Made by a program: the position numbers and the translations under genes
NCBI GenBank assembly: GCA_947305045.1
Contig: CAMZCW010000049.1
Location: 1-13,171, forward strand
Length of the DNA stretch: 13,171 bases
Direction: 5' to 3'
Source of the DNA: an uncultured Bacteroidales bacterium
Lineage (GTDB): Bacteria; Bacteroidota; Bacteroidia; Bacteroidales; UBA932
Shown: positions 1,218 to 13,171 of the stretch, one piece after another
Numbering within the stretch: position 1 is the stretch's first letter
Layout: each line of letters begins with the position of its first letter
Notes under the pieces: model-generated
What the model was told of the DNA's origin: nothing
Database searches by the model: none
The model's input: the letters and a program-made list of their open reading frames with translations, nothing else

Positions 1218-2560
1218 TGGCAACTCCCTCTCAGAAAGGTTTTTACAGGTCAGCGGCTTGGATAGCGCTGGCCTGTTTGGTAGTGCCGATGTTCGCATCG
1301 TACTACTTTGACGATATGTTCTCCAGCATATCCTACCTGTTCGAGAACGCTTCGCTCACGCAGCTTGGCTGGGACGCGGCCGGCTACGGCCTCTACGCCA
1401 GCGGTTACAGCGTGCTGTGCGTCTTCGGCGGCCTGGTTGTAGGCGGTATCCTGCTGGACAAATGGGGCGTCCGCGTGAGCGGCTCCGTCTTTGTGGGCAT
1501 GATGGCGGCCGGCGCAGGAATGGTCCTCTGGGCCCTTCTCAGTGGCGCCTCCTGGTCACTCCAGGCGGCCTGTGTGGGCGTCATGTTCTTCGGCCTGGGC
1601 AGTGAGATTGCCGGAACTGCCGTTACGCGCAGCATCGCCAAATGGTTCAAAGGCGGGCCGATGGCCCTCGCCATGGGCCTCCAGCTGGCCATCGCCCGTC
1701 TGGGCACGGCCTTCGCCCTGGTGCTCTCGCCCATGCTGGTGAAGGAGCAGGCGGGCCACGTGTACACGCTCGCGGAAACCGCCCGTCCCGCCCTGGTGGG
1801 CATGGGCCTGATGGCCCTGGGCCTTATCCTCTGGGCCGTCTTTGTGGCCCTGGATGCCCGTAGGGACAAGGCGTCTGTCATTCCGAGCGAAGTCGAGGAA
1901 TCTCCTGTCGTGAATGACGACGACACCTTCCGCTTCAAGGACGTCCTGGGCGTGCTGGGTAACAAGAATTTCTGGCTTCTGGGCCTTCTGTGCGTGCTCT
2001 TTTACAGCAGCATCATCGCCTTCAAGAAATTTGCCGGGGCCATCCTCATTCCCCGTTTCGACATTCCTGCGCAGGCGGCCGGCTGGATGGTGTCCATGCT
2101 GCCGTTCTCCACGGTCATTTTTGCCCCGCTGTTCGGTATGCTGGTCGATAAAGCCGGCAAGGGCACGCGCTGGATGGTCATCGGCGCTATATTGGCGCTC
2201 ATCGCCCATCTGCTCCTGGCTTTTGCCCCCGCCGGTGTGCCTTTCTGGGGATATCTGGCCATGGTTTTCCTGGGCTTTGGCTACTCGCTGGTGCCGGCGG
2301 CCCTCTGGCCCTCCGTTCCCAAGATTGTGCCGGATAAGGTGCTGGGCACCACCTTCGCCCTCATTTACTGGGTGCAGAACCTGGGCCTGCTGAGCTTCAA
2401 ATGGGTGGCCGGTGTCATCCTGGGCAAGGAAGGCAACGGCCCCGTTTCCGTGGAGCTCATGTTCGTGAGCCTCTGCGTCGCCGCCGTAGTGGTGGCACTG
2501 ATGTTCCGCCGCACGGCCGCCCGCCATCCGGACCTCAAACTGGATTTGCCCAACAGCTAA
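1217..2560 (+). CDS. MFS permease, MFSD1-like, complete (447 aa)
   Basis: This is a complete 12-helix major-facilitator permease of the inner membrane and a paralogue of the gene before it. The N-half shows the loop 2-3 motif GGILLDKWGVR (about residues 76-86) and KWFKGGPMALAMGLQLAIARLG (about 142-163). The C-half shows GYSLVPAALWPSVPK and TTFALIYWVQNLGL (about 355-391). These stretches recall the MFSD1 branch, some members of which carry dipeptides; the substrate here is unknown. The ATG overlaps the upstream TAA by one base and no Shine-Dalgarno sequence is visible, which fits translational coupling and Bacteroidota habits. The central cytoplasmic loop contains VIPSEVEESPVVND (residues 221-234), the in-frame translation of a widespread dispersed repeat, in the place where the paralogue has an acidic linker. 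The stop overlaps the convergent GH92 stop. Confidence 0.93.
   Translation: MATPSQKGFYRSAAWIALACLVVPMFASYYFDDMFSSISYLFENASLTQLGWDAAGYGLYASGYSVLCVFGGLVVGGILLDKWGVRVSGSVFVGMMAAGAGMVLWALLSGASWSLQAACVGVMFFGLGSEIAGTAVTRSIAKWFKGGPMALAMGLQLAIARLGTAFALVLSPMLVKEQAGHVYTLAETARPALVGMGLMALGLILWAVFVALDARRDKASVIPSEVEESPVVNDDDTFRFKDVLGVLGNKNFWLLGLLCVLFYSSIIAFKKFAGAILIPRFDIPAQAAGWMVSMLPFSTVIFAPLFGMLVDKAGKGTRWMVIGAILALIAHLLLAFAPAGVPFWGYLAMVFLGFGYSLVPAALWPSVPKIVPDKVLGTTFALIYWVQNLGLLSFKWVAGVILGKEGNGPVSVELMFVSLCVAAVVVALMFRRTAARHPDLKLDLPNS
1876..1918 (+). repeat. Dispersed repeat sequence embedded in frame in the MFS loop
   Basis: The DNA starting at 1876 (TGTCATTCCGAGCGAAG, continuing to GAGGAATCT at 1903) is recognised from memory as a short interspersed repeat common in intergenic DNA of Bacteroidota, Chlorobi and other bacteria. 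It often appears in translated databases as VIPSEVEES or, on the other strand, as SSTSLGMT or RFLDFARND. All three readings occur here. The arm GTCATTC (1877-1883) is mirrored by GAATGAC (1912-1918), so the unit can form a stem. It sits in frame within the cytoplasmic loop between the two halves of the permease, a place that tolerates insertions. No other copy was seen in this window. Confidence 0.65.
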
Positions 2561-4722
2561 AGATTCGTACCCCAGTCCGGATTGGGCTTGGCGCCCATTT
2601 CCAGGCACAGCTCCCCGCCGGAGACAAGGGCTTCGTGCGGGAGGAAGGGGCTGTTCCACTCCTTCCCGTTTAGCGTAGCCCGCTGGATGTATTTGGCATC
2701 GGCCGATACGCCTTTGGCCTTGACAGTGAACGTTTTCCCATTGGACAGATGTATCACGGACTTCTCAAAGAGGGGACTGCCGATGGTGTATTCTGCCAGT
2801 CCCGGTGTGACGGGGTACAACCCTACCGAGGAAAACACCACAAAGGAGGTCATGCCACCACCGTCTTCGTCGCCGGGAATGCCCATGAGGTCGTTGCGGA
2901 ACCACGTACGGAGCATCTGTCGGATGCGTTTCTGCGTTTTCCAGGGTGCTCCGGCATAGTTATACAGATAGGGAACATGCAGGGAAGGTTCGTTGGCCAT
3001 GGAGAACTGGCCCACATTGCCGGTATGGTCCGGCAGTTTGGAATAAAACTCGAATTTGCTGTGCCCCAGCGGGGTGGCAAACATCCGGTCCAGTTCTGTG
3101 ATAAACGCCTCCCGGCCGCCCATCAGTTGAATCAGGCCTGCAATGTCGTGCTGGACATCCCAGCGATACACCCAGGCGTTGTTCTCGTCATAGAATTCCC
3201 GTGCACCTAAACCGCCGGGGAAGGTATAATCCATATTCGGAATCCAATTCCCATCCTTGTCTTTGGGGTGGAAGAAGCGGGTTTCCGGGTTAAAAAGGGT
3301 CCGATAACGCTGTGACAGCGCCAGGAAGCGGGTAGAGAGGCTGTCATCTCCGGCCTGGGCGGCCAGCTGTGCCAGGCACCAGCAGTCATAAGCGGTTCCC
3401 AGTGTCACTGCCACAGGCTGCCGTTTTTCGAAACTGTGTACGTTGGGATCAGTCTCGGCTTCGCCTTCCCGGAGGGCCGGAATATAGCCGTTTTCCCAGT
3501 AAAAGCGGTCGATTAAGCCAGCCGGAGCCGCAGACCAGGGCGCCAGCGTTTTTTCCGTAATGCCCTTGTATGCCACTTCCAGGGCGGCCTTTCTGTCAAA
3601 GTCCAGACCTTTTACGGCGGCATCGGCAAAGGTGGCGACGGTATGGTTGCTATTCATGCGACGGGTATCCCCACTGATTTCCGGGAAGGTTGGCATCCAG
3701 TCTTTGCCATTCTCCCGGGCCATCCGGATAAAGGAGGTAAGGATGGCTTCTTCCGTGTGGCTGTCTGTCAGGAGCCTGAGCGGATGGGCCGCCCTGTACG
3801 TGTCCCATAGCCAGTCGTCCGTATAAAACGGGATACCGCCGTCCTCATGTACGGTCCCGTCCTCTGCACTCCAGTACCGGCCATCTTCGCTAATGCAGAC
3901 CGGGCGTTCAAAGGTCCGGTAATAAGAAGTGTAAAAAACGGTTTTGTCGTCCTCTGAACCGCCTTGAACGGCAATGCGGGAAAGGGTTTTGTTCCACAGG
4001 TCCCGTCCCTGCCGCGCCTGTGCATCCACGTTATAATGGTTCAGCTCTCGCCGCAAATTGGCCTCTGCCTGCTCTGCGCTGATATAGGAAACGCCATAGC
4101 GGAGGTGTACTACGGGGGAGTCGAATCCCCAAATGGCAAAAGAGGTATCTCCATCTTGCGCCATACGGAGTGTCTTGGGCTCCTCCTGGCTTTCCATACA
4201 AAGAAAGACCGAGGTTTTATCGTCTATGTGTTGGATGCCCTTAAGGGTGTTCCCGTCCATGTGTACCTCTCCGTTGAGGCTGGCAATAGAAAGGGACAGC
4301 GGCCGGTCGCTTCTGAGTTCATACAGGGCCGATTGGTGCGAGGGCGCAAAACGTACGTCAATGCTGCCATCGGCTACGGAGACCTCCCACAGGTAAGGCG
4401 TAAGGTGTTCGTTGTCGTAGGTGAGCGGGAGCACGGGAGAGGTTACTTCATCGGCCGTTACGGATAGTTTAAAGGCCGACCGTTCCCGATGATTGGTCAC
4501 CACCAGCGGCAGACCGTTCATATACTCGGAAGTGTAGTCTGCCCGCTCGGGATAGATGCGCAACATGGAGTTGGGCAGCTGGACCGTAGCGAAAGTGGGG
4601 ACCAGCAGGTGACTGATGTTGCCGATATACGGGTTTACATAATCGACAGGCGTCTTTGCTTGCTGGCAAGAAAACGAAAAAAATAGAGCCAGGAGGCTGT
4701 AGAAGGCGTTTTTTTTATTCAT
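2557..4722 (-). CDS. GH92 family alpha-mannosidase-type lipoprotein (721 aa)
   Basis: Family GH92 enzymes are calcium-dependent exo-alpha-mannosidases acting on mannans and N-glycans. Numbering from the start chosen here, the N-terminus is a lipoprotein signal (MNKKNAFYSLLALFFSFSC, Cys19), followed by VDYVNPYIGN, the usual beginning of the mature family. Family blocks in order are TDDWLWDTYRAAHPLRLL (301-318), NSNHTVATFADAAVKG (357-372), NEPSLHVPYLYNYAGAPWKTQ (577-597) and GDEDGGGMTSFVVFSSVGLYPV (617-638). Glu578 in NEPS and the acidic pair Asp618/Asp620 are candidates for the catalytic acid and base by family analogy. An ATG 24 codons upstream (4794) is rejected because it lies inside the promoter and would bury the signal peptide. 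The length is typical and the gene appears intact. It is transcribed away from the regulator and is probably part of its regulon. Exact linkage specificity is not predictable. Confidence 0.92.
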   Translation of the reverse strand: MNKKNAFYSLLALFFSFSCQQAKTPVDYVNPYIGNISHLLVPTFATVQLPNSMLRIYPERADYTSEYMNGLPLVVTNHRERSAFKLSVTADEVTSPVLPLTYDNEHLTPYLWEVSVADGSIDVRFAPSHQSALYELRSDRPLSLSIASLNGEVHMDGNTLKGIQHIDDKTSVFLCMESQEEPKTLRMAQDGDTSFAIWGFDSPVVHLRYGVSYISAEQAEANLRRELNHYNVDAQARQGRDLWNKTLSRIAVQGGSEDDKTVFYTSYYRTFERPVCISEDGRYWSAEDGTVHEDGGIPFYTDDWLWDTYRAAHPLRLLTDSHTEEAILTSFIRMARENGKDWMPTFPEISGDTRRMNSNHTVATFADAAVKGLDFDRKAALEVAYKGITEKTLAPWSAAPAGLIDRFYWENGYIPALREGEAETDPNVHSFEKRQPVAVTLGTAYDCWCLAQLAAQAGDDSLSTRFLALSQRYRTLFNPETRFFHPKDKDGNWIPNMDYTFPGGLGAREFYDENNAWVYRWDVQHDIAGLIQLMGGREAFITELDRMFATPLGHSKFEFYSKLPDHTGNVGQFSMANEPSLHVPYLYNYAGAPWKTQKRIRQMLRTWFRNDLMGIPGDEDGGGMTSFVVFSSVGLYPVTPGLAEYTIGSPLFEKSVIHLSNGKTFTVKAKGVSADAKYIQRATLNGKEWNSPFLPHEALVSGGELCLEMGAKPNPDWGTNL

Positions 4723-4763
4723 AAATTGTTCCGGAGCTGCAAATGAGTCGCACTCCGCGGGTA

Positions 4764-4795
4764 TAAATGTAAGAGAAAATATGCTCTTTTTCAAA
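4764..4795 (-). promoter_or_regulatory. Predicted promoter of the GH92 gene
   Basis: On the minus strand a TTTG (4795-4792) is followed after 20 bases by TACATTTA (4771-4764). This matches the Bacteroides -33 TTTG / -7 TAnnTTTG pattern at the normal spacing, with one mismatch in the last base of the -7 box. It predicts a leader of roughly 35 bases before the ATG at 4722 and supports that start over the upstream ATG at 4794. This is a pattern match only. Confidence 0.55.
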
Positions 4796-4804
4796 AAAAA
4801 GGCG

Positions 4805-4812
4805 TATTTTTG
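4805..4812 (+). promoter_or_regulatory. Predicted -7 box of the regulator gene
   Basis: TATTTTTG fits the Bacteroidota -7 consensus TAnnTTTG exactly and ends only 8 bases before the ATG at 4821. Transcription would begin almost at the start codon, giving a leaderless or nearly leaderless mRNA. No TTTG is present about 20 bases upstream, where the sequence is a T-run followed by an A-run, so the promoter may be weak. It lies within the 98-bp divergent region shared with the GH92 promoter. Confidence 0.45.
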
Positions 4813-4820
4813 ACAAAGAT

Positions 4821-6290
4821 ATGATGAAACCTAGTTGGGAAAAAACCCTTTGGGTCATGTTGTTCATGACCCTATCCTTCCTGCTTCCTGCCAAGGTGAA
4901 GGACGGCCTTTTATTCCGTTCCTACGATGTCGTTTCGGACCAGCGCACGTCGCTGGATATTCCTTCGCCCGGTAATTACCTGAACTTCCAGGATTCCCTG
5001 AACGTATCCTTCGATGTCCGCCTGGAGTTGGACCGCGGACGCTTTGGCTATGTGTGTCGTTTGTTCGTGGACGGCGAGGAGCCTATCGACCTGCTGCTTT
5101 CAACCCCGCAGGGGGGCGGCACCTCACTTGTTTTTACCGGCAATCACCGGGACATGGTTCCTCTTTATCATTCGGACCCCATCCTCTCCCTATGGCAGAA
5201 TGTGCACATGAGCGTAATAAAAAGGGGGGATCAGATGCACGTTTTGGTGAACGGAAAGGACCTCTATCAGTTTCAGACGGCACAAGTGCGCCACACCTGC
5301 TCCATCAGCTTCGGGAGGGGGAATAATGACAAAAATACCACCACGGATGTCGCGCCTATGGTTATCCGCAACCTGCGTGTCCGCACGGACAAGCGGAGAC
5401 CTTATTTCTGGGTCATGTCCGACGAATCGGAAATGAAATCCGGCACAGGCCTCCCGGTCCAAATCAACAATCCGGTCTGGTTGCAGGACTATAACCGCAA
5501 ATGGCGGAAAGTCTGGTCGGAAGAAATGCCGTCCACTACGTACATCTGTCCCGATACCCTGCGCGGGCGCCTGTGGTTTGTATCTGAGGGTAAGGTGGTT
5601 TGCTATCAGGTGAATACCGGTTCCTGGTGGAGCCGCCAGTCCTCGCGGAAGTTGAAGCTGGGTCTGGCTGTCAATGACCTGGTTATTCTCTCGGACGGTA
5701 CCCTGGCCTTCGCAGACGAAGGCCTCTTGCCGCACTTTCTCCGATACGATGCCGATGCAGGGGAGTGGGAACAGGATAATCCGCGCCAGCACAGCTCCTT
5801 GCACCTGCACCATAATACCCTGTATCTTCCCGACAGCGATCAGTTTGTGTACCTGTTCGGCTATGGCCAGTATCGTTACCACAAAAGTGCCACCATCTGG
5901 AGCGAGGCAACGGACAGCGTGCAGGTCATGGAACTGCCGGGGGTGTTTCCGCGTTATCTGGCGGGCGCCGGTTATCGCAACGGACTCATTTATGTGCTGG
6001 GTGGAAAGGGCAATGACATAGGAATTCAGGAACTGGGCATACACTTGTATGACGACTTCTTTTCCCTGGATTTGAAGGACGGCACCTTGAGTCGGCTTTG
6101 GCGCAGTGAGGTCATGAATGGGGAGGTGGCTGTGAAAGATCTTCTTTTCAGTGCCGATGGATCTTCGTTCCTTACGCTCACCTTTAACCCGGATGTGTAT
6201 GAATCGGCCCTTCAATTGCGCCGGTTTTCCATGGCCGACGGCCATTCAGAATTATTAAGTACCCCCCCCCATCCCGTTCCCTTTCCTTGA
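4821..6290 (+). CDS. Transmembrane SARP-like regulator, N-terminal part: LamG-like plus Kelch-like sensor (frameshifted)
   Basis: This frame encodes the sensor half of a membrane-spanning one-component regulator. Residues 1-24 are a signal peptide or N-terminal membrane segment. About 30-190 look like a LamG/concanavalin-type beta sandwich (NVSFDVRLEL, WQNVHMSVIKRGDQMHVLVNGKDLYQF, DVAPMVIRNLRV). About 215-475 look like a Kelch-type beta-propeller with repeated aromatic and Gly motifs (RYLAGAGYRNGLIYVLGGKG at 378-397, FFSLDLKDGTLSRLW at 413-427). The frame ends in TPPHPVPFP and a TGA just after a run of nine Cs. The continuation in the next frame (see the entry starting at 6259) supplies the end of the propeller, the membrane helix and the DNA-binding domain. 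Together they would make 814 residues. As it stands, this product would be an exported sensor without output. The ligand is unknown; a glycan is inferred from the neighbouring susCD. Confidence 0.82.
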   Translation: MMKPSWEKTLWVMLFMTLSFLLPAKVKDGLLFRSYDVVSDQRTSLDIPSPGNYLNFQDSLNVSFDVRLELDRGRFGYVCRLFVDGEEPIDLLLSTPQGGGTSLVFTGNHRDMVPLYHSDPILSLWQNVHMSVIKRGDQMHVLVNGKDLYQFQTAQVRHTCSISFGRGNNDKNTTTDVAPMVIRNLRVRTDKRRPYFWVMSDESEMKSGTGLPVQINNPVWLQDYNRKWRKVWSEEMPSTTYICPDTLRGRLWFVSEGKVVCYQVNTGSWWSRQSSRKLKLGLAVNDLVILSDGTLAFADEGLLPHFLRYDADAGEWEQDNPRQHSSLHLHHNTLYLPDSDQFVYLFGYGQYRYHKSATIWSEATDSVQVMELPGVFPRYLAGAGYRNGLIYVLGGKGNDIGIQELGIHLYDDFFSLDLKDGTLSRLWRSEVMNGEVAVKDLLFSADGSSFLTLTFNPDVYESALQLRRFSMADGHSELLSTPPHPVPFP

Positions 6291-7266
6291 TGTCGAGTCG
6301 GAAGCCCGTCTCTTGTACGATCCCCGTGAGGAAAATTATGTGGCGGCCGTCGCCTGCAAGGAACCGGATGGTGTTTTCCGGGTCTCGGTATATCTGTTAG
6401 GGGCTCCGCTGCTGGATGCCGCGGAAGGACATGTCGTAAAGCGGATCGGTCACCTGGGCTGGGGACTCCTGCTGTGTTTCTGCCTGGGGCTTGCCGGTAT
6501 CTGGGCGTGGAGGCGTTTCAGGCGCGGAAAGGCGGCGCAGATCAAGGCTGTACCCCGGCCCTCCAAACAGCCGCCCGTACGGCTTTTGGGCGGTTTCAGG
6601 GTATATGGCGCGGGCGGAGAAGACATTACGTCCTGCTTTACCCCGCAAACGAAACGCTTCTTTGTGCTTCTTATCCTGTATACAGTGGAATACGGCGGTG
6701 TTTCCAATGCCAAACTCAAGAGCCTGCTGTGGTCGGACAAGTCGGACGAGAGCTACAATAATAACAGAGGTGTCACCATGAAAAAAATCCGCACGGTACT
6801 GGAGCAGGTGGGCGATCTGGACTTTGTCTCCGATGGCGGCCAGTGGAAGGTTTCCGGCAACACGGCGCTCTGTGATTACTTTGTTGCGGCAGAGGCTCTT
6901 CGGCAGGGAGGAACGCTGGAAGAACTCCTGGAAGTAGCTTCCTGGGGCCCTCTCCTTCCGGAGCTGCAGTTGGACTTCCTGGACCCGTTCAAGTCCAGCC
7001 ATACCAACCGGGTTCTTCAGGGGATGGAGCATATCCGGGAACAGATGGGCAGTGCGCTTACACCGGTCCAGTCCGAGCAATTGGCTGACTGTGCCCTGCT
7101 GTTCGATTCGCTGGAGGAGGACGCTATCCGCTTCAAGTGCCACGCCCTTATTGCCCAGAAACGCCTGGGTACTGCACAGCAGGTATTCTCCCGTTTTGCG
7201 GAGGAATACCGACAGGTGATGGGCGAGCCTTTTTCTGTCGATTTCAAGGCTTTTATAAAAAAATAA
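6259..7266 (+). CDS. Transmembrane SARP-like regulator, C-terminal part: membrane helix, winged helix, BTAD-like domain (frameshifted)
   Basis: This frame opens after a TAA at 6256-6258 and continues the preceding reading frame shifted by +1. It has no convincing start of its own; the first start-like codon is TTG at 6313, with no ribosome site. Counting from that TTG, residues 48-67 (LGWGLLLCFCLGLAGIWAWR) form one membrane helix followed by an Arg/Lys-rich cytoplasmic edge. Residues about 89-182 are a winged helix of the OmpR/SARP kind (VRLLGGFRVYG, FTPQTKRFFVLLILYTVEYG, SNAKLKSLLWSDKSDESYNNNRGVTMKKIRTVL, FVSDGGQWKVSG). Residues about 186-317 are an all-helical tail like the BTAD domain of SARP activators, ending EEYRQVMGEPFSVDFKAF. 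The whole protein would bind DNA from the membrane. The cotH-susC-susD operon starting 68 bp downstream is the obvious target, by inference. Confidence 0.8.
   Translation, partial: VPPPIPFPFLDVESEARLLYDPREENYVAAVACKEPDGVFRVSVYLLGAPLLDAAEGHVVKRIGHLGWGLLLCFCLGLAGIWAWRRFRRGKAAQIKAVPRPSKQPPVRLLGGFRVYGAGGEDITSCFTPQTKRFFVLLILYTVEYGGVSNAKLKSLLWSDKSDESYNNNRGVTMKKIRTVLEQVGDLDFVSDGGQWKVSGNTALCDYFVAAEALRQGGTLEELLEVASWGPLLPELQLDFLDPFKSSHTNRVLQGMEHIREQMGSALTPVQSEQLADCALLFDSLEEDAIRFKCHALIAQKRLGTAQQVFSRFAEEYRQVMGEPFSVDFKAFIKK
6262..6270 (+). repeat. C(9) homopolymer tract at the regulator frameshift
   Basis: Nine consecutive Cs lie inside the 32-base stretch (6259-6290) where both frames of the split regulator are open. 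With eight Cs (or eleven) the two halves would join into one 814-residue frame reading STPPIPFPFLDVESEARL. The tract could be a phase-variation site, a transcriptional-slippage site, a recent inactivating mutation, or a sequencing/assembly error. Confidence 0.85.
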
Positions 7267-7334: not shown

Positions 7335-8909
7335 ATGTACGGCCGCATAATAAAAACACTGTTCTGTTTAGCCGGAGTCTTTCTTGTTTCCTGCTCCCAG
7401 AATAAAGAACCCGTCCCGGAATCCGAACCGGAGGAGACGGCAGCATTGCCTGTTGCTGTTGATATTTCCTTGTCCGGCATCCAGAAACTGTCCTGGGGAG
7501 GCACGTTGCCGTTACAGATTGGCCTGCGTCCTGCCAGTGCGTTGGAAGGCCTGGAGAAAGAGGGCCTGCCCGGCATGCTTTCGGTGGAGCGGGCCTATGT
7601 TCATTCCGCAGAGCCACTGGACGTGGAATTGCGGGATGTGCGTCTGGTGAAAACGGACAACGCACTCCGTTTCGAAGCCGTACTTGCCGATAAATGCACC
7701 CGGGGAACCTATTCCGACGACGTCCGTATCGTCTTTACCCGGGAAGGAAAAACGGTGGGATCGCCGGCATTCCATGTGGTTTCCCAAGCCTTCGATGGAC
7801 TGGGAACCGGCCTTCCTACCGTCATCATCGATACGCCGGGACATGCGCCTATCACCAGCAAGGAGACCTGGGTGGAGGGCGTCAAAATGCTTATTTTTGA
7901 TGCCGACATGCGCCTGGCCTATCAGGGTGACACCCAGATGAAAGGTCGGGGCAACAGCACCTGGACGCAGTTCCCGAAAAAACCTTATGCCCTGAAACTG
8001 GACAAGAAAGCGGAAATTTTGGGGATGACCAAGCACAAACGCTGGTGCCTGCTGGCCAATTGGATGGACCGCACGCTCATCCGGAACGATGTGGCCTTCG
8101 AAATAGGCCGTCGTACCGGTCTGTCCTGGACCCCTTCCGGCCGTTTTATAGAGCTTATCCTGAACGGGACGCACATGGGAAACTACTATTTGTGCGAGCA
8201 GGTGAAGGTGGACAAGGGACGGGTGAATATCTCGGAAGAGGGCGGATTTCTGCTGGAATGCGACGCCTGGTTCAACGAAGCCTTCAAGTTCCGTTCGGCC
8301 ATCCACGATGTGCCCTGGCAGTTCAAAGACCCGGATGAGGTGACGGACGAGCAGTTCCAGTTTGTCCAGAAGTGGGTAAACGACATGGAACAGGCCCTGT
8401 ACGACCCCGACCGTTTTGACGCCCGCGAATACAAGGATTATCTGGATGCCGCCTCCTTTGCCGACTGGTGGATCGTGAACGAACTGGCCCAGAACAGTGA
8501 GGTTAACCAGCCCAAGAGTGCCTATGTCTATATGGACGCAGGCGGCAAACTCACCGCCGGCCCTGTGTGGGACTTTGACTGGGGCACCTTCATCCCTAAA
8601 GAAAAATACAGTTACGTGGCCATGGGCGCCAAGTACTATATCCACCAGTTGTTCAAGGACCCGGCCTTCCGGTCCGTTATCAAGGAACGCTGGAACCTGT
8701 GCAAGGACCAACTGGCCACCATCCCGGCCTACATTGACGCGGTCGCGGCCACCCTGGTGGCGTCCGATGCCTTGAACAGCGCCATGTGGCCCATTAACCG
8801 TACCACCAATCATGATGAGCAGTTGTACTACAGTGAGGCGGTTGCGCGCCTGAAGAAAGGTTATCAGGAAAAATACGACTGGCTGAATACAAACATTAAC
8901 TCATATTAG
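7335..8909 (+). CDS. CotH kinase-domain lipoprotein (524 aa)
   Basis: This is a predicted lipoprotein with a CotH-type domain. CotH is an atypical protein kinase first characterised in Bacillus spore coats; the Bacteroidota members are mostly uncharacterised. The chosen ATG gives MYGRIIKTLFCLAGVFLVSC, a signal peptide with lipobox LVSC (Cys20), followed by an acidic linker (PVPESEPEE) that could favour surface display. Residues about 40-155 look like a small beta-rich domain. About 160-520 carry CotH hallmarks: QMKGRGNSTWTQFPKKPYALKL (201-222), KRWCLLANWMDRTLIRNDVAFEIGRRTGL (235-263), NGTHMGNYYLCEQVKVDKGRV (277-297) and GPVWDFDWG (409-417). The Lys-rich KKPYALKL and the DFD acidic motif are the likely ATP/metal-binding elements by family analogy. 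The open frame extends to 7137, but that part overlaps the regulator and precedes the promoter. It heads the operon, 7 bp before susC. The substrate is unknown. Confidence 0.88.
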   Translation: MYGRIIKTLFCLAGVFLVSCSQNKEPVPESEPEETAALPVAVDISLSGIQKLSWGGTLPLQIGLRPASALEGLEKEGLPGMLSVERAYVHSAEPLDVELRDVRLVKTDNALRFEAVLADKCTRGTYSDDVRIVFTREGKTVGSPAFHVVSQAFDGLGTGLPTVIIDTPGHAPITSKETWVEGVKMLIFDADMRLAYQGDTQMKGRGNSTWTQFPKKPYALKLDKKAEILGMTKHKRWCLLANWMDRTLIRNDVAFEIGRRTGLSWTPSGRFIELILNGTHMGNYYLCEQVKVDKGRVNISEEGGFLLECDAWFNEAFKFRSAIHDVPWQFKDPDEVTDEQFQFVQKWVNDMEQALYDPDRFDAREYKDYLDAASFADWWIVNELAQNSEVNQPKSAYVYMDAGGKLTAGPVWDFDWGTFIPKEKYSYVAMGAKYYIHQLFKDPAFRSVIKERWNLCKDQLATIPAYIDAVAATLVASDALNSAMWPINRTTNHDEQLYYSEAVARLKKGYQEKYDWLNTNINSY

Positions 8910-8916
8910 TACGCTT

Positions 8917-11900
8917 ATGAATACCCAACCCTCTTTGTTGAGCAAAATGCTCCTGACGCTGGGCCTGGCTGCTTTACTGCTTGGGACCTGCGGAATGGAT
9001 GCTTTTGCCCAAAAGAACCCATCAGGGGCACGTACCCTGGTTGGTACTGTTACGGCAGGGGAGCCTTTCCCCGGCCCGCTCCCCGGTGCTACGGTATTGA
9101 ATACCAAGACTAAGCAGGGTGTCGTCACCGACGCTGACGGTCATTATTCCATCCGTGTTACCGGTCCCGATGATATCATCCAATTTCGTTTTCTGGGCTA
9201 TAAGGACGTGGACCGCATCGCCGGTGTGGCCGCCCGTCTGGATGTGGAGATGGAAGATGCATCCAATGTACTGGACGAGACCGTGGTTATCGGTTATGGT
9301 ACAACCAAGAAAAGAGATATAACCGGCTCCATTGTCTCCGTGACCAAGGAAGACATTGAGAACAAAATGCCCACCAATGTGTACGATGTGCTGCAGGGTA
9401 CCGCTGCCGGTGTCCAGGTGACTTCCGGTTCCGGTCAGCCGGGTGAAGGCTCTTCCGTCATCATCCGTGGTACTTCAACCATGAACGATGCCGGTGTAGG
9501 ACCCCTGTGGGTGGTGGATGGCGTCCCCAGCACGGACATCGACCAGTTGAACCCGTACGACATCGAATCCATAGAAGTCCTCAAGGATGCCGCCTCTGCG
9601 GCTATCTACGGTTCTCGTTCGGCCAATGGCGTCATCCTGGTAACCACCAAGCGCGGTAATGAGAGCAACCCGGTATTGGAAATCCGCTATCAGCACTCCG
9701 TAGCCAGCCTTACACACAAGCTGCCTCAAATCAACGCCAACCAGTACCGCGATATGCAGAAGGGCTATCTGGAATATGCCGAGGGTGAAGGTGACGGCCT
9801 GGTTTCCCAGGCGGTGGTGAATATCTTGAACTCTCAGCTGGGTGACCCCTACAACGTGCTTCTCAACGAGGATAACGACTACCAGCAGCAGGCATATCGG
9901 ATGGCCCATAAGGATCAGGTGGACCTGAGTTTCGGCGGTGCCAGCAAGCAGCTCAAATACATGCTGATGGGCGGTTTCTATAATGAGCAGGGTATCATCC
10001 GGAATACCAATTTCCGGCGTGCCTCCATCCGCCTGAATGCCGACTATACGGCCAACCGCGTGCTGTCCCTGGGTACCAAGATCAACGCCAGCTACGCCCG
10101 CAAGGACGGTGTGGAAGAGGCCGGTTACCTGAATAGCATCCTTTCCCGCAAACCTACGCTGAGCATGTACTATCCAGACGGCACGCTCATCGGCACCCTT
10201 TGGGGCATGAGTCCGCTGGCGGCGAACCTTCAGACCAACTTCAACGAGTATTTTCGCGCATCTATCTTCCAGTTCCTGGACCTCAAGTTCGGCGAGCACT
10301 TCAAGTGGACCTCCAACCTGAATGCGAACTTTGGCTTGGTGCGTTACACCTACATGCGTCCGACCGCCCTCAGTGACCAGTACCTGCACAACTACGGTCA
10401 GCAGCGGAACACCATGACCTTCGACCTGATGAATGAGAACTACCTGAATTTCACTTATTCCATCAATGAGAAGCACAACTTCCAGGCAATGGCCGGTTTC
10501 TCCCTCCAGACCTGGCGTACCAACCTGGATTACTTCAAGGGACAGGATTCCGCCACGGACGCCGTCTGGACAATGAACGCCTTCGCAGCCAATTTCGACC
10601 TCACGGCCACCGGCAGCACGGAAACCCGCCACAACATGCTTTCCGGTTTTGCCCGCTTCACGTATAACTACAAGTCCCGCTATATTTTCTCGGCCAATGT
10701 CCGCGCCGATGGATCTTCGCGTTTCGCCAAGAACAAGAAGGTGGGTCTGTTCCCATCCGTGTCTGCGGCCTGGCGTTTGTCCGACGAGCGATTCATGCGG
10801 GGCGTCAAGCGGGCGCTCAAGCTCTCCGACGCCAAGATCCGCGCCAGCTACGGTATTACGGGTAACGAGGCCATCGGTGACTACGATTCGCAGTTGAGCT
10901 ATGCCATCGGCGGCATTTACGACGGCGTGGCCGGCGTCACCGCTTCCCGCATCGCCGTGAACGACCTGGGCTGGGAACGTACCCGCCAGTTCAATGCTGG
11001 TTTGGACCTGAGTTTCCTGCAGGGTCGCTACCAGCTCACCGTGGACTACTTCGACAAACTCACGGACAACCTGCTGGCCAATTACGAGATTCCCAAGGAA
11101 TGGGGCTTCAACACCGTACGCAAGAACATCGGATCCATTGACAACCGGGGCGTGGAGCTTGCCTTTAAGGGTACCTTCCTGAACAGGCGCAATTATTACC
11201 TGCATGTAGATGCCAATGTCACCTACAACCGTAACCGCGTGGTGGAACTGGCCAACCATACGGACTACATCTACAGTGATAACTGGTACATCTCCGAGGG
11301 ACGTCCGTTGGGCGATTTCTACGGATACAAGTTCCTGAACGTATTTCCTTACGATGAGTCCAATGCTTTTACGGCCGACTGGAAACAGCTCACGCCGGTG
11401 TTCGAGGGCGGCGCCTTCAGTCATTATACGCTGGACGGTAAGCGCTACGAAGGTGACGTACACCAGAAGACCCTGCCCAGCGGCGTTCCGTTCCGGGGGG
11501 GTGACATCAACTGGGAGGAGAATCCGGAGCACCGCGACGGTATCATCAACGACCAGGACCGCATGATTCTGGGCAATGCACAGCCGTTCCTTACCGGTGG
11601 TCTTACGCTTACGCTCCGTTTGTGGCAGTTTACTTTCACGGCCGGCTCCTATTTCTCCTTTGGCGGAAAAATTTACAACTTTGCCCGTTATAACCAGGAT
11701 CAGGCAAGCATGGCCGCCTGGTCCACTACGCCCACAATCAACTGGGTAAACAACTTCTGGGTAAAACAGGGTGACAAAGTGGATTATCCGCGCCCGTTCG
11801 CAGATAGTTTCCAAAACGACCGCCGCGTGAATTCCCGGTACATTGAGGATGGCTCTTTCTTCAAGATCAAGAACATGCGCCTGACCTACCGCTTCAAGCC

Positions 11901-12090
11901 CAGCGTGACCCAGCGAATGCATGTGCGCGGCCTGGCCCTGTATGCCTTCGTGACCAACCCGTTCACTTTCACGGCCTACAGCGGCTACGACCCCGAATTC
12001 TCCAATTACAGTGCCCTCTCCATCGGTATGGATACCAACCGGTTCCCGCGTAACCGTGAGGTCGGCCTTGGTTTTACCCTCAATCTCTAA
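8917..12090 (+). CDS. susC-like: SusC/RagA-type TonB-dependent outer-membrane transporter (1057 aa)
   Basis: SusC-type proteins are 22-stranded outer-membrane barrels that import oligosaccharides (or peptides) with a SusD lid and TonB energy. Residues 1-31 are a signal peptide ending AFA before Gln32. About 40-112 form the carboxypeptidase-D-like domain (GVVTDADGHYSI, FRFLGYKD). The TonB box region is DETVVIGYGTTKKRD (120-134). The plug follows, with the SusC signature GPLWVVDGVPSTDIDQLNP and IESIEVLKDAASAAIYGSRSANGVILVTTKRG (about 195-247). The rest is barrel, ending EVGLGFTLNL. There is no N-terminal STN domain, so signalling through an anti-sigma factor is not expected, which fits control by the membrane-bound regulator upstream. 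The length is normal. It starts 7 bp after cotH and ends 3 bp before susD. A seven-G run (11495-11501) lies in the gene but the frame is intact. Confidence 0.97.
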   Translation: MNTQPSLLSKMLLTLGLAALLLGTCGMDAFAQKNPSGARTLVGTVTAGEPFPGPLPGATVLNTKTKQGVVTDADGHYSIRVTGPDDIIQFRFLGYKDVDRIAGVAARLDVEMEDASNVLDETVVIGYGTTKKRDITGSIVSVTKEDIENKMPTNVYDVLQGTAAGVQVTSGSGQPGEGSSVIIRGTSTMNDAGVGPLWVVDGVPSTDIDQLNPYDIESIEVLKDAASAAIYGSRSANGVILVTTKRGNESNPVLEIRYQHSVASLTHKLPQINANQYRDMQKGYLEYAEGEGDGLVSQAVVNILNSQLGDPYNVLLNEDNDYQQQAYRMAHKDQVDLSFGGASKQLKYMLMGGFYNEQGIIRNTNFRRASIRLNADYTANRVLSLGTKINASYARKDGVEEAGYLNSILSRKPTLSMYYPDGTLIGTLWGMSPLAANLQTNFNEYFRASIFQFLDLKFGEHFKWTSNLNANFGLVRYTYMRPTALSDQYLHNYGQQRNTMTFDLMNENYLNFTYSINEKHNFQAMAGFSLQTWRTNLDYFKGQDSATDAVWTMNAFAANFDLTATGSTETRHNMLSGFARFTYNYKSRYIFSANVRADGSSRFAKNKKVGLFPSVSAAWRLSDERFMRGVKRALKLSDAKIRASYGITGNEAIGDYDSQLSYAIGGIYDGVAGVTASRIAVNDLGWERTRQFNAGLDLSFLQGRYQLTVDYFDKLTDNLLANYEIPKEWGFNTVRKNIGSIDNRGVELAFKGTFLNRRNYYLHVDANVTYNRNRVVELANHTDYIYSDNWYISEGRPLGDFYGYKFLNVFPYDESNAFTADWKQLTPVFEGGAFSHYTLDGKRYEGDVHQKTLPSGVPFRGGDINWEENPEHRDGIINDQDRMILGNAQPFLTGGLTLTLRLWQFTFTAGSYFSFGGKIYNFARYNQDQASMAAWSTTPTINWVNNFWVKQGDKVDYPRPFADSFQNDRRVNSRYIEDGSFFKIKNMRLTYRFKPSVTQRMHVRGLALYAFVTNPFTFTAYSGYDPEFSNYSALSIGMDTNRFPRNREVGLGFTLNL

Positions 12091-12093
12091 ACT

Positions 12094-13171
12094 ATGCGAA
12101 AGAATATGAAATCGACGATACATTCCTTACTCATTTGCATGCTGGGCGCCGCGCTGGCAGTCCCTTCCTGCAGGATGCTGGATGCCGAGCCCGTCAGTGA
12201 GATTCCCCAGAGCGAGATGTGGCAGAACCAGCGCGACGTGAATGCGGGCATTGCAGAAATCTACGCCTCCTTCCGTACGGCGCTGCGGACCAACTGGTTC
12301 TGCTGGGGAGAGATGCGATCCGACAATTTTGTGTTGTATCAGGAATTGCCCAACGAATACGGCAAGCTCATCATGAACCAGATGACTACGGACCTTCCGT
12401 CCACCAACTGGACCAGTCTGTACAAGGTTATCAGCAATACCAACTTTGCCATTCAGAACATTCCCAACGCCAATATTACGGACCAGACCCTCAAGAACGA
12501 CTATCTTGCCCAGGCCTATGCCATGCGTGCCCTCTGCTACTTCTATGCGGTGCGCGTATGGGGGGCCGTTCCGGTGTATCTGGATCCGGTGGACAACCTG
12601 GCCGACGCCAAGGTGCAGGGCCGTACGCCCAAGGACGAGGTCCTGCGCGATGTCATTATCCCGGATCTGGAACTGGCGGAATCGCTCATCGACCCGTCCA
12701 ATGTGGAGCGCAAGCGCATCAGCCGCAATGCCATTTATGCTATTCTGGCCGATGCCCAGATGTGGCTGGGCGAGTGGGAGCAGGCCGATGCCACCATCGA
12801 CCGCTTTATGGCAGCCAATGGCAGCCCGGATGCCACCATAACCAACTCCAAGGTGATTTTCCAGTCCAACCTGGAAGAACTGAAGAACAGCTTTGTCACC
12901 GGACTCAATAACAAGGCCGGCGACAACAATCCCCAGGTGGACGAATACGGTGACCCCAACGAGTTCATCTTCGTGATTCATCACAATATCAACGAGGCGG
13001 GACTGAGCAATTATTCCATGATCTGGAGCATCCTGGGTTGCGGAATGGGTCAGGGCTCCACCGTGGTGCTCTCACCCAAGCTGCAGGCTGTATATGAGGC
13101 ATCAGTGGCCAGTGCCCCCATCGACAAGCGCATGGAGCAGTATCTGTGCCCTTCCAAGTCGGACCGTTCCA
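12094..13171 (+). CDS. susD-like: SusD/RagB-type glycan-binding lipoprotein, 3' end outside window
   Basis: SusD-type proteins are surface lipoproteins that cap the SusC barrel and capture the glycan. The frame is open from the ATG at 12094 to the last base, giving 359 residues; about 150-200 more would be expected. The N-terminus (MRKNMKSTIHSLLICMLGAALAVPSC) is a lipoprotein signal with Cys26; an alternative start is Met5. The mature part opens with a helical region (SEIPQSEMWQNQRDVNAGIAEIYASF). The SusD family hallmark YLAQAYAMRALCYFYAVRVWGAVPVYLDPV lies at about residues 138-167. TPKDEVLRDVIIPDLELAESLI and KRISRNAIYAILADAQMWLGEWEQADATIDRFM continue the TPR-like helices. It is 3 bp downstream of susC and clearly co-transcribed with it. 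Specificity is not predictable from sequence. Confidence 0.95.
   Translation, partial: MRKNMKSTIHSLLICMLGAALAVPSCRMLDAEPVSEIPQSEMWQNQRDVNAGIAEIYASFRTALRTNWFCWGEMRSDNFVLYQELPNEYGKLIMNQMTTDLPSTNWTSLYKVISNTNFAIQNIPNANITDQTLKNDYLAQAYAMRALCYFYAVRVWGAVPVYLDPVDNLADAKVQGRTPKDEVLRDVIIPDLELAESLIDPSNVERKRISRNAIYAILADAQMWLGEWEQADATIDRFMAANGSPDATITNSKVIFQSNLEELKNSFVTGLNNKAGDNNPQVDEYGDPNEFIFVIHHNINEAGLSNYSMIWSILGCGMGQGSTVVLSPKLQAVYEASVASAPIDKRMEQYLCPSKSDRS

Follow-up and report, generated by a model that had tools for sequence, protein, structure and literature searches.

A nine-cytosine tract divides a predicted Kelch-SARP-like regulator upstream of cotH-susC-susD in an uncultured Bacteroidales bacterium: a candidate ON/OFF allele

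Homopolymeric tracts are known to alter regulator genes in other phyla. In bvgS of Bordetella pertussis, a cytosine tract occurs as C6 or C7; the extra C truncates the product and turns the target genes off, and mixed C6/C7 populations are described in passages of PMC1891110. In mga of group A Streptococcus, a C8/C7 tract gives rise to a reversible frameshift, of which the reversion has been observed (excerpts of PMC11868660). For Bacteroides, the switching of SusC/SusD and capsule loci by DNA inversion is described in parts of PMC12632263 and PMC11868660; in the portion of PMC12632263 consulted, the words "homopolymer" and "slipped" do not occur. Bacteroidota are also reported, in a section of PMC12699852, to have a high density of short repeats. 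In literature searches judged by title, in which few subscription papers were covered, homopolymer switching of Bacteroidales regulators or of SusC was not found among the matches listed, nor was anything relevant to a Kelch/BTAD architecture.

The split reading frame and its intact counterpart

The sequence analysed here, called the window, is a stretch of 13,171 nucleotides from an uncultured Bacteroidales bacterium. Its relevant features are the following.

2557 to 4725, minus strand: GH92 glycosidase (PF07971), divergent
4821 to 6290, plus strand: upstream frame, with the signal peptide, a beta-sandwich (labelled "LamG-like" in the sequence-only reading) and most of a Kelch propeller
6259 to 7266, plus strand: downstream frame, with the last propeller strands, a membrane helix and a SARP-like DNA-binding half
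6262 to 6270, plus strand: C(9) tract, the point of divergence of the two frames, placed from the sequence and the junction residues of the relative P0001
6451 to 6522, plus strand: predicted membrane helix, covering residues 65-88 when counted in the downstream frame, with a hydropathy peak at residues 63-66
6574 to 7263, plus strand: winged-helix and helical-repeat half with a fold like AfsR and EmbR (domain borders estimated)
7335 to 8909, plus strand: CotH-domain protein (PF08757; the start at 7335 was chosen by us, and a longer frame from 7137 exists)
8917 to 12090, plus strand: SusC-like TonB receptor (Plug and CarbopepD_reg_2)
12094 to 13171, plus strand: SusD-like protein (PF14322), cut by the window end

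The window also encodes two MFS transporters, the first of which is truncated at the window start, and the large neighbouring ORFs (both MFS, GH92, CotH, SusC and SusD) are all open. The regulator lies upstream of cotH-susC-susD, as expected from the susCD genes noticed downstream in the sequence-only reading.

The upstream ORF encodes 489 amino acids and ends in TGA at 6288-6290, while the second frame is open from 6259, just after a TAA at 6256-6258, to a stop ending at 7266. Both frames are jointly open over 32 bases only (6259-6290), and the C(9) tract, taagtaCCCCCCCCCatcccg, lies inside this interval; the overlap proposed from the letters alone is thus borne out by the ORF coordinates. 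No other homopolymer in the window is as long; the G/C run that comes next is G7 at 11495. That the downstream half has an ordinary start of its own was considered and ruled out, as it contains no ATG before 6778; an in-frame TTG (6313) and an in-frame GTG (6340) precede it.

When the protein of the upstream half was used as query, 77 relatives were obtained at E <= 1e-10 (7994 candidates scored). The best of them, P0001, occurs naturally in the same species and reads through the junction. Compared with the window, it has 4 differing residues among the 480 before the junction and none among the 333 that follow; the two mismatches also seen at 480-481 reflect the change of frame. At the tract, P0001 reads STPPIPFPFLD, which, with the codons of the window, implies an in-frame C8. 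Within this species, the tract therefore probably differs in length between the window (C9) and P0001 (C8, implied from the protein only); the species is represented by this one other sequence, as protein, and C(9) is a single consensus. In one respect, the tract resembles a homopolymer contingency locus: it is located inside a reading frame, exactly at the break, and P0001 is in frame.

The junction that had been predicted for the restored frame, PPIPFPFLDVESEARLLYDP, occurs letter for letter in P0001, and the expected single frame of 814 codons corresponds to the 814 amino acids of this protein. The IPF-type linker expected of homologues was also recovered, as IPF/IPY..FLD, in many of them. 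Three further relatives, P0002-P0004 (78-83% identical over the sensor), read STPIP or SSPIP where P0001 has STPPIP. They are one residue shorter at the tract, which indicates that its length has changed before.

The absence of any change in the 333 downstream residues rules out an old pseudogene and makes simple decay, the alternative raised in the sequence-only reading, less likely. With the downstream half as query, three short proteins were retrieved, none of which was the species' own split half. No split form of the window species was found among the proteins listed, where clustering at 90% could hide such forms, and the junction pattern had 0 matches in viral_contigs.

Proline tRNA is liable to +1 shifts on CCC-C, and the two frames overlap precisely at a run containing it. 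Some full-length protein could then be made from C9 by a ribosomal shift, or by RNA polymerase slippage as had been suggested. We consider such recoding highly improbable. The RNA after the tract has a folding energy of -13.9 kcal/mol against a mean of -15.4 for shuffled sequences (z +0.52), so that neither a stable structure nor the downstream stimulating element of programmed frameshifting was found past the tract; programmed frameshifting has no support here, and no evidence was obtained for polymerase slippage. Moreover, no shift is needed by P0001 or by the 67 homologues described below that have no run of at least 8 (one, L202, carries a nonsense stop instead).

Domain architecture of the regulator

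The gene begins with a signal peptide and a beta-sandwich, followed by a Kelch propeller, a single membrane helix and the AfsR/EmbR-like (SARP) half. The structure model of the intact relative P0001 has a Kelch beta-propeller fold, and a profile search against solved structures returned Kelch-type chains only. A second list of structure matches for the same model was taken up by the propeller and says nothing against other folds. For the downstream half, all six Foldseek matches at E <= 0.001 were AfsR or EmbR chains, among them 8hvr_I (E 6.1e-7) and 2fez (E 6.2e-6), as expected of a SARP fold. In Pfam, no family was found for the downstream half of the window at E 0.001, nor at E 0.01 for the output half of P0001, P0038 or P0084; for this reason we speak of a SARP-like fold and not of a SARP member. 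The predicted helix and the fold of the output half agree with the earlier view of a membrane-spanning regulator split at C(9).

In the model of P0001, the strands 484-487, 494-500, 505-513 and 519-527 lie beyond the break, which falls at residue ~482. Since the break removes the last propeller strands, the truncated product of the window allele is, as judged from this model, probably an incomplete sensor. The suggestion that the cell would export a sensor without output is accordingly doubtful.

Frame breaks at G/C runs among homologues

Overlapping searches of 150, 398, 121 and 374 genomes, together with some additional loci, supplied the DNA of the homologues. Many of the 107 loci entered were repeats, and a 100-base stretch in common was taken to mark a single gene. 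With the window, 78 distinct genes remained, of which 72 were near full length; the six with less than 75% query coverage, including L196-L198 (output half only), were left out. At least 10 further output-half-only matches are not in the set, and the gene that is spread over two contigs as L106 and L107 was likewise left out of the count.

A frame change was found in 4 of the 72 near-full-length homologues, each time at a G/C run of at least 8, and a recount gave the same result:

window: C9
L104 (genome G069): G8
L098 (genome G335): G9
L208 (genome G335): G8

Only one other homologue, L091 (G464), has such a run, a G8 that is in frame. Among the remaining 67, no frame change was observed. One of them, L202 (G830:C80), which lacks any run of at least 8, is interrupted by an internal nonsense stop, and hence ordinary breakage of Kelch-SARP genes occurs too. 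If the genes were independent, the chance of all four frame changes falling among the five run-bearing genes would be 4.9e-6; they are not fully independent, because G335 alone contributes two of the broken genes and the set includes near-identical ones (L010/L089/L115 and L206/L207). In these assembled sequences, the coincidence of break and G/C run is more than chance, the frame changes of the 72 homologues being found at such runs only. These independent breaks make plausible the tract-based variable spot that had been proposed for Bacteroidales.

L098 and L208 are two Kelch-SARP paralogues of the same genome, both broken N-terminally (at about residues 134 and 169). Among the short homologues, P0035 and P0079 are named partial by NCBI and P0078 comes from an 847-base contig; P0021, with an odd tail, and P0074, P0080, P0123 and P0136 could be breaks elsewhere.

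Homopolymers are the usual site of assembly and sequencing errors. The main rival explanation is that the consensus gives a wrong number of Cs for a tract that is in reality in frame, as the in-frame state of P0001 in the same species would suggest. The confinement of the breaks to long runs does not help here, for homopolymer errors would produce the same pattern. However, the other runs in coding sequence of the window (G6 at 5111, 5224 and 12560, A7 at 6781 and G7 at 11495) are not accompanied by a break. On the whole, we regard an error at C(9) as unlikely, though it deserves the most weight among the rivals.

In the species of L104, proteins in all three frames after the G run were found among the best 120 of 825 matches, with 98-100% identity to the sensor half. 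P0083 (5 members) ends in SSAGGGLVSYS, the full-length P0084 (97 members) reads SSAGGGIGVIF, and P0081 (38 members, 8 contigs) and P0082 (2 members) read SSAGGGDWCHIHS. G8 is read in DNA, at L104, and G9 and G10 are implied from the proteins. The three frames form separate protein clusters from ncbi, lgn and ena sources, which argues against error, for the L104 species and not for C(9) itself. P0086, 74% identical, is also out of frame just past the same position. This run is placed at residue ~535, between the propeller and the membrane helix, and the truncated forms therefore retain the whole sensor, unlike that of the window. As it is a run of G and not of C, at another position, the two cases are parallel and not inherited.

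In the genome of L104 (G069), 61 overlapping pattern matches correspond to 43 distinct G/C runs of at least 8 (loci L104 and L124-L172). By ORF heuristics, 21 of these runs are in frame within ORFs of at least 100 codons (L156 being doubtful), and 11 of the 21 lie no more than 110 bases from the start, many of these 11 in signal peptides. Seven genes are out of frame: the regulator, two SusC, a FecR, a BACON protein, a lipoprotein-like signal peptide and a DUF6377 protein. From these calls, L157 was dropped on account of an in-frame ATG after the run, and L134, L161 and one G-strand frame of L158 were not counted. The runs may possibly represent a genome-wide set of contingency loci. As raw counts, irrespective of base composition, the 18 G9 matches of G069 are not exceptional: at least one was present in 119 of 150 relatives, with 54 in G019 and 76 in G125.

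Two side observations were made. The susC directly after the broken L104 regulator (4609-6501, reverse) has an in-frame G9 67 bases past its start, so that two runs are stacked at this locus. Overlapping G9 matches vary widely among the relatives, G119 and G137 included, from 0 to 76, with the 54 of G019 in a genome of 1.5 Mb.

The closest DNA match to the window among 398 family genomes was G001, at 68% identity. This genome has 14 runs of at least 8, of which 7 are of length 8, 3 of length 9 and 4 of length 10; in G013 there are 6. Nine of the ten runs of at least 9 in these two genomes lie outside long ORFs and one is ambiguous; no coding repertoire is therefore evident near the window's lineage, and a repertoire of coding C runs was not found in G001, the closest relative examined. 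The runs outside long ORFs are C or G runs of 9-11 (L048, L050, L052, L054, L057 and L061 in G001; L063, L065 and L066 in G013). Several adjoin TA-rich DNA, and that of L061 precedes the start of a long ORF by 35 bases. They are possibly promoter-spacing tracts.

A one-off recent frameshift, heading to a pseudogene and with neither reversion nor switch function, would agree with the single strain in the out-of-frame state and with G001, which is devoid of a repertoire of coding runs. Against it stand the unchanged downstream residues, the independent run breaks in three other homologues and the three lengths implied in one species, although the last two argue for hypermutability and not for function. 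Such an event seems to us quite unlikely.

A variable tract and the known switches

An intact near-identical strain, together with breaks at similar runs in related species, makes a natural on/off spot look likelier than decay. Thus, the regulator allele of the window is probably an OFF form, frameshifted and without function but otherwise intact, produced by slippage in the poly-C tract, other cells of the species being in frame (ON). Replication slippage would alter the tract between the in-frame and C9 states, and this change would be reversible. C9 cells would make no working regulator, and the OFF cells would lose signal-dependent control of cotH-susC-susD. Whether the tract is a selected switch or merely a tolerated hypermutable spot is another matter, and on balance we lean away from selection. 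As a tentative proposal, somewhat less likely than not, it may be that some Bacteroidales lineages switch outer-membrane uptake genes by G/C-homopolymer contingency loci too, with slippage severing the DNA-binding half of the Kelch-SARP regulator and the susC run at L104 acting as a second, stacked switch.

Bacteroidales are a model for DNA-inversion switching, and switching by a tract would differ from the inversion accounts given in the reviews (passages of PMC12632263 and PMC11868660). If the proposed switching is true, tract lengths counted in existing metagenome reads would tell in which cells an uptake regulator is on and in which it is off. Some of the short frameshifts met in assembled Bacteroidales genomes would then represent switch states and not errors or pseudogenes.

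By the fold of its DNA-binding half, the regulator resembles AfsR and EmbR (8hvr, 8k60, 2fez, 2ff4). It differs from them in its other parts, an extracytoplasmic propeller and a membrane helix beneath which this half hangs; to our knowledge, a comparable Kelch sensor with membrane helix is absent from the solved AfsR and EmbR proteins. As in bvgS, the C tract is located within a sensor-type regulator gene (passages of PMC1891110). In contrast to bvgS, which encodes a two-component histidine kinase in another phylum and for which switching has been shown, the window regulator is a one-component Kelch-SARP protein known from sequence. The product of mga is a cytoplasmic regulator. The mga gene, as described in excerpts of PMC11868660, shares with the window a regulator-gene C tract of almost the same length; it belongs to another phylum, and its reversion has been observed, whereas the window allele is read from DNA alone. 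Finally, the stochastic ON/OFF systems of Bacteroides occur in the same phylum and, in the parts of the sources cited above, include SusC/SusD genes; those systems use site-specific inversion, whereas the window allele would depend on homopolymer length.
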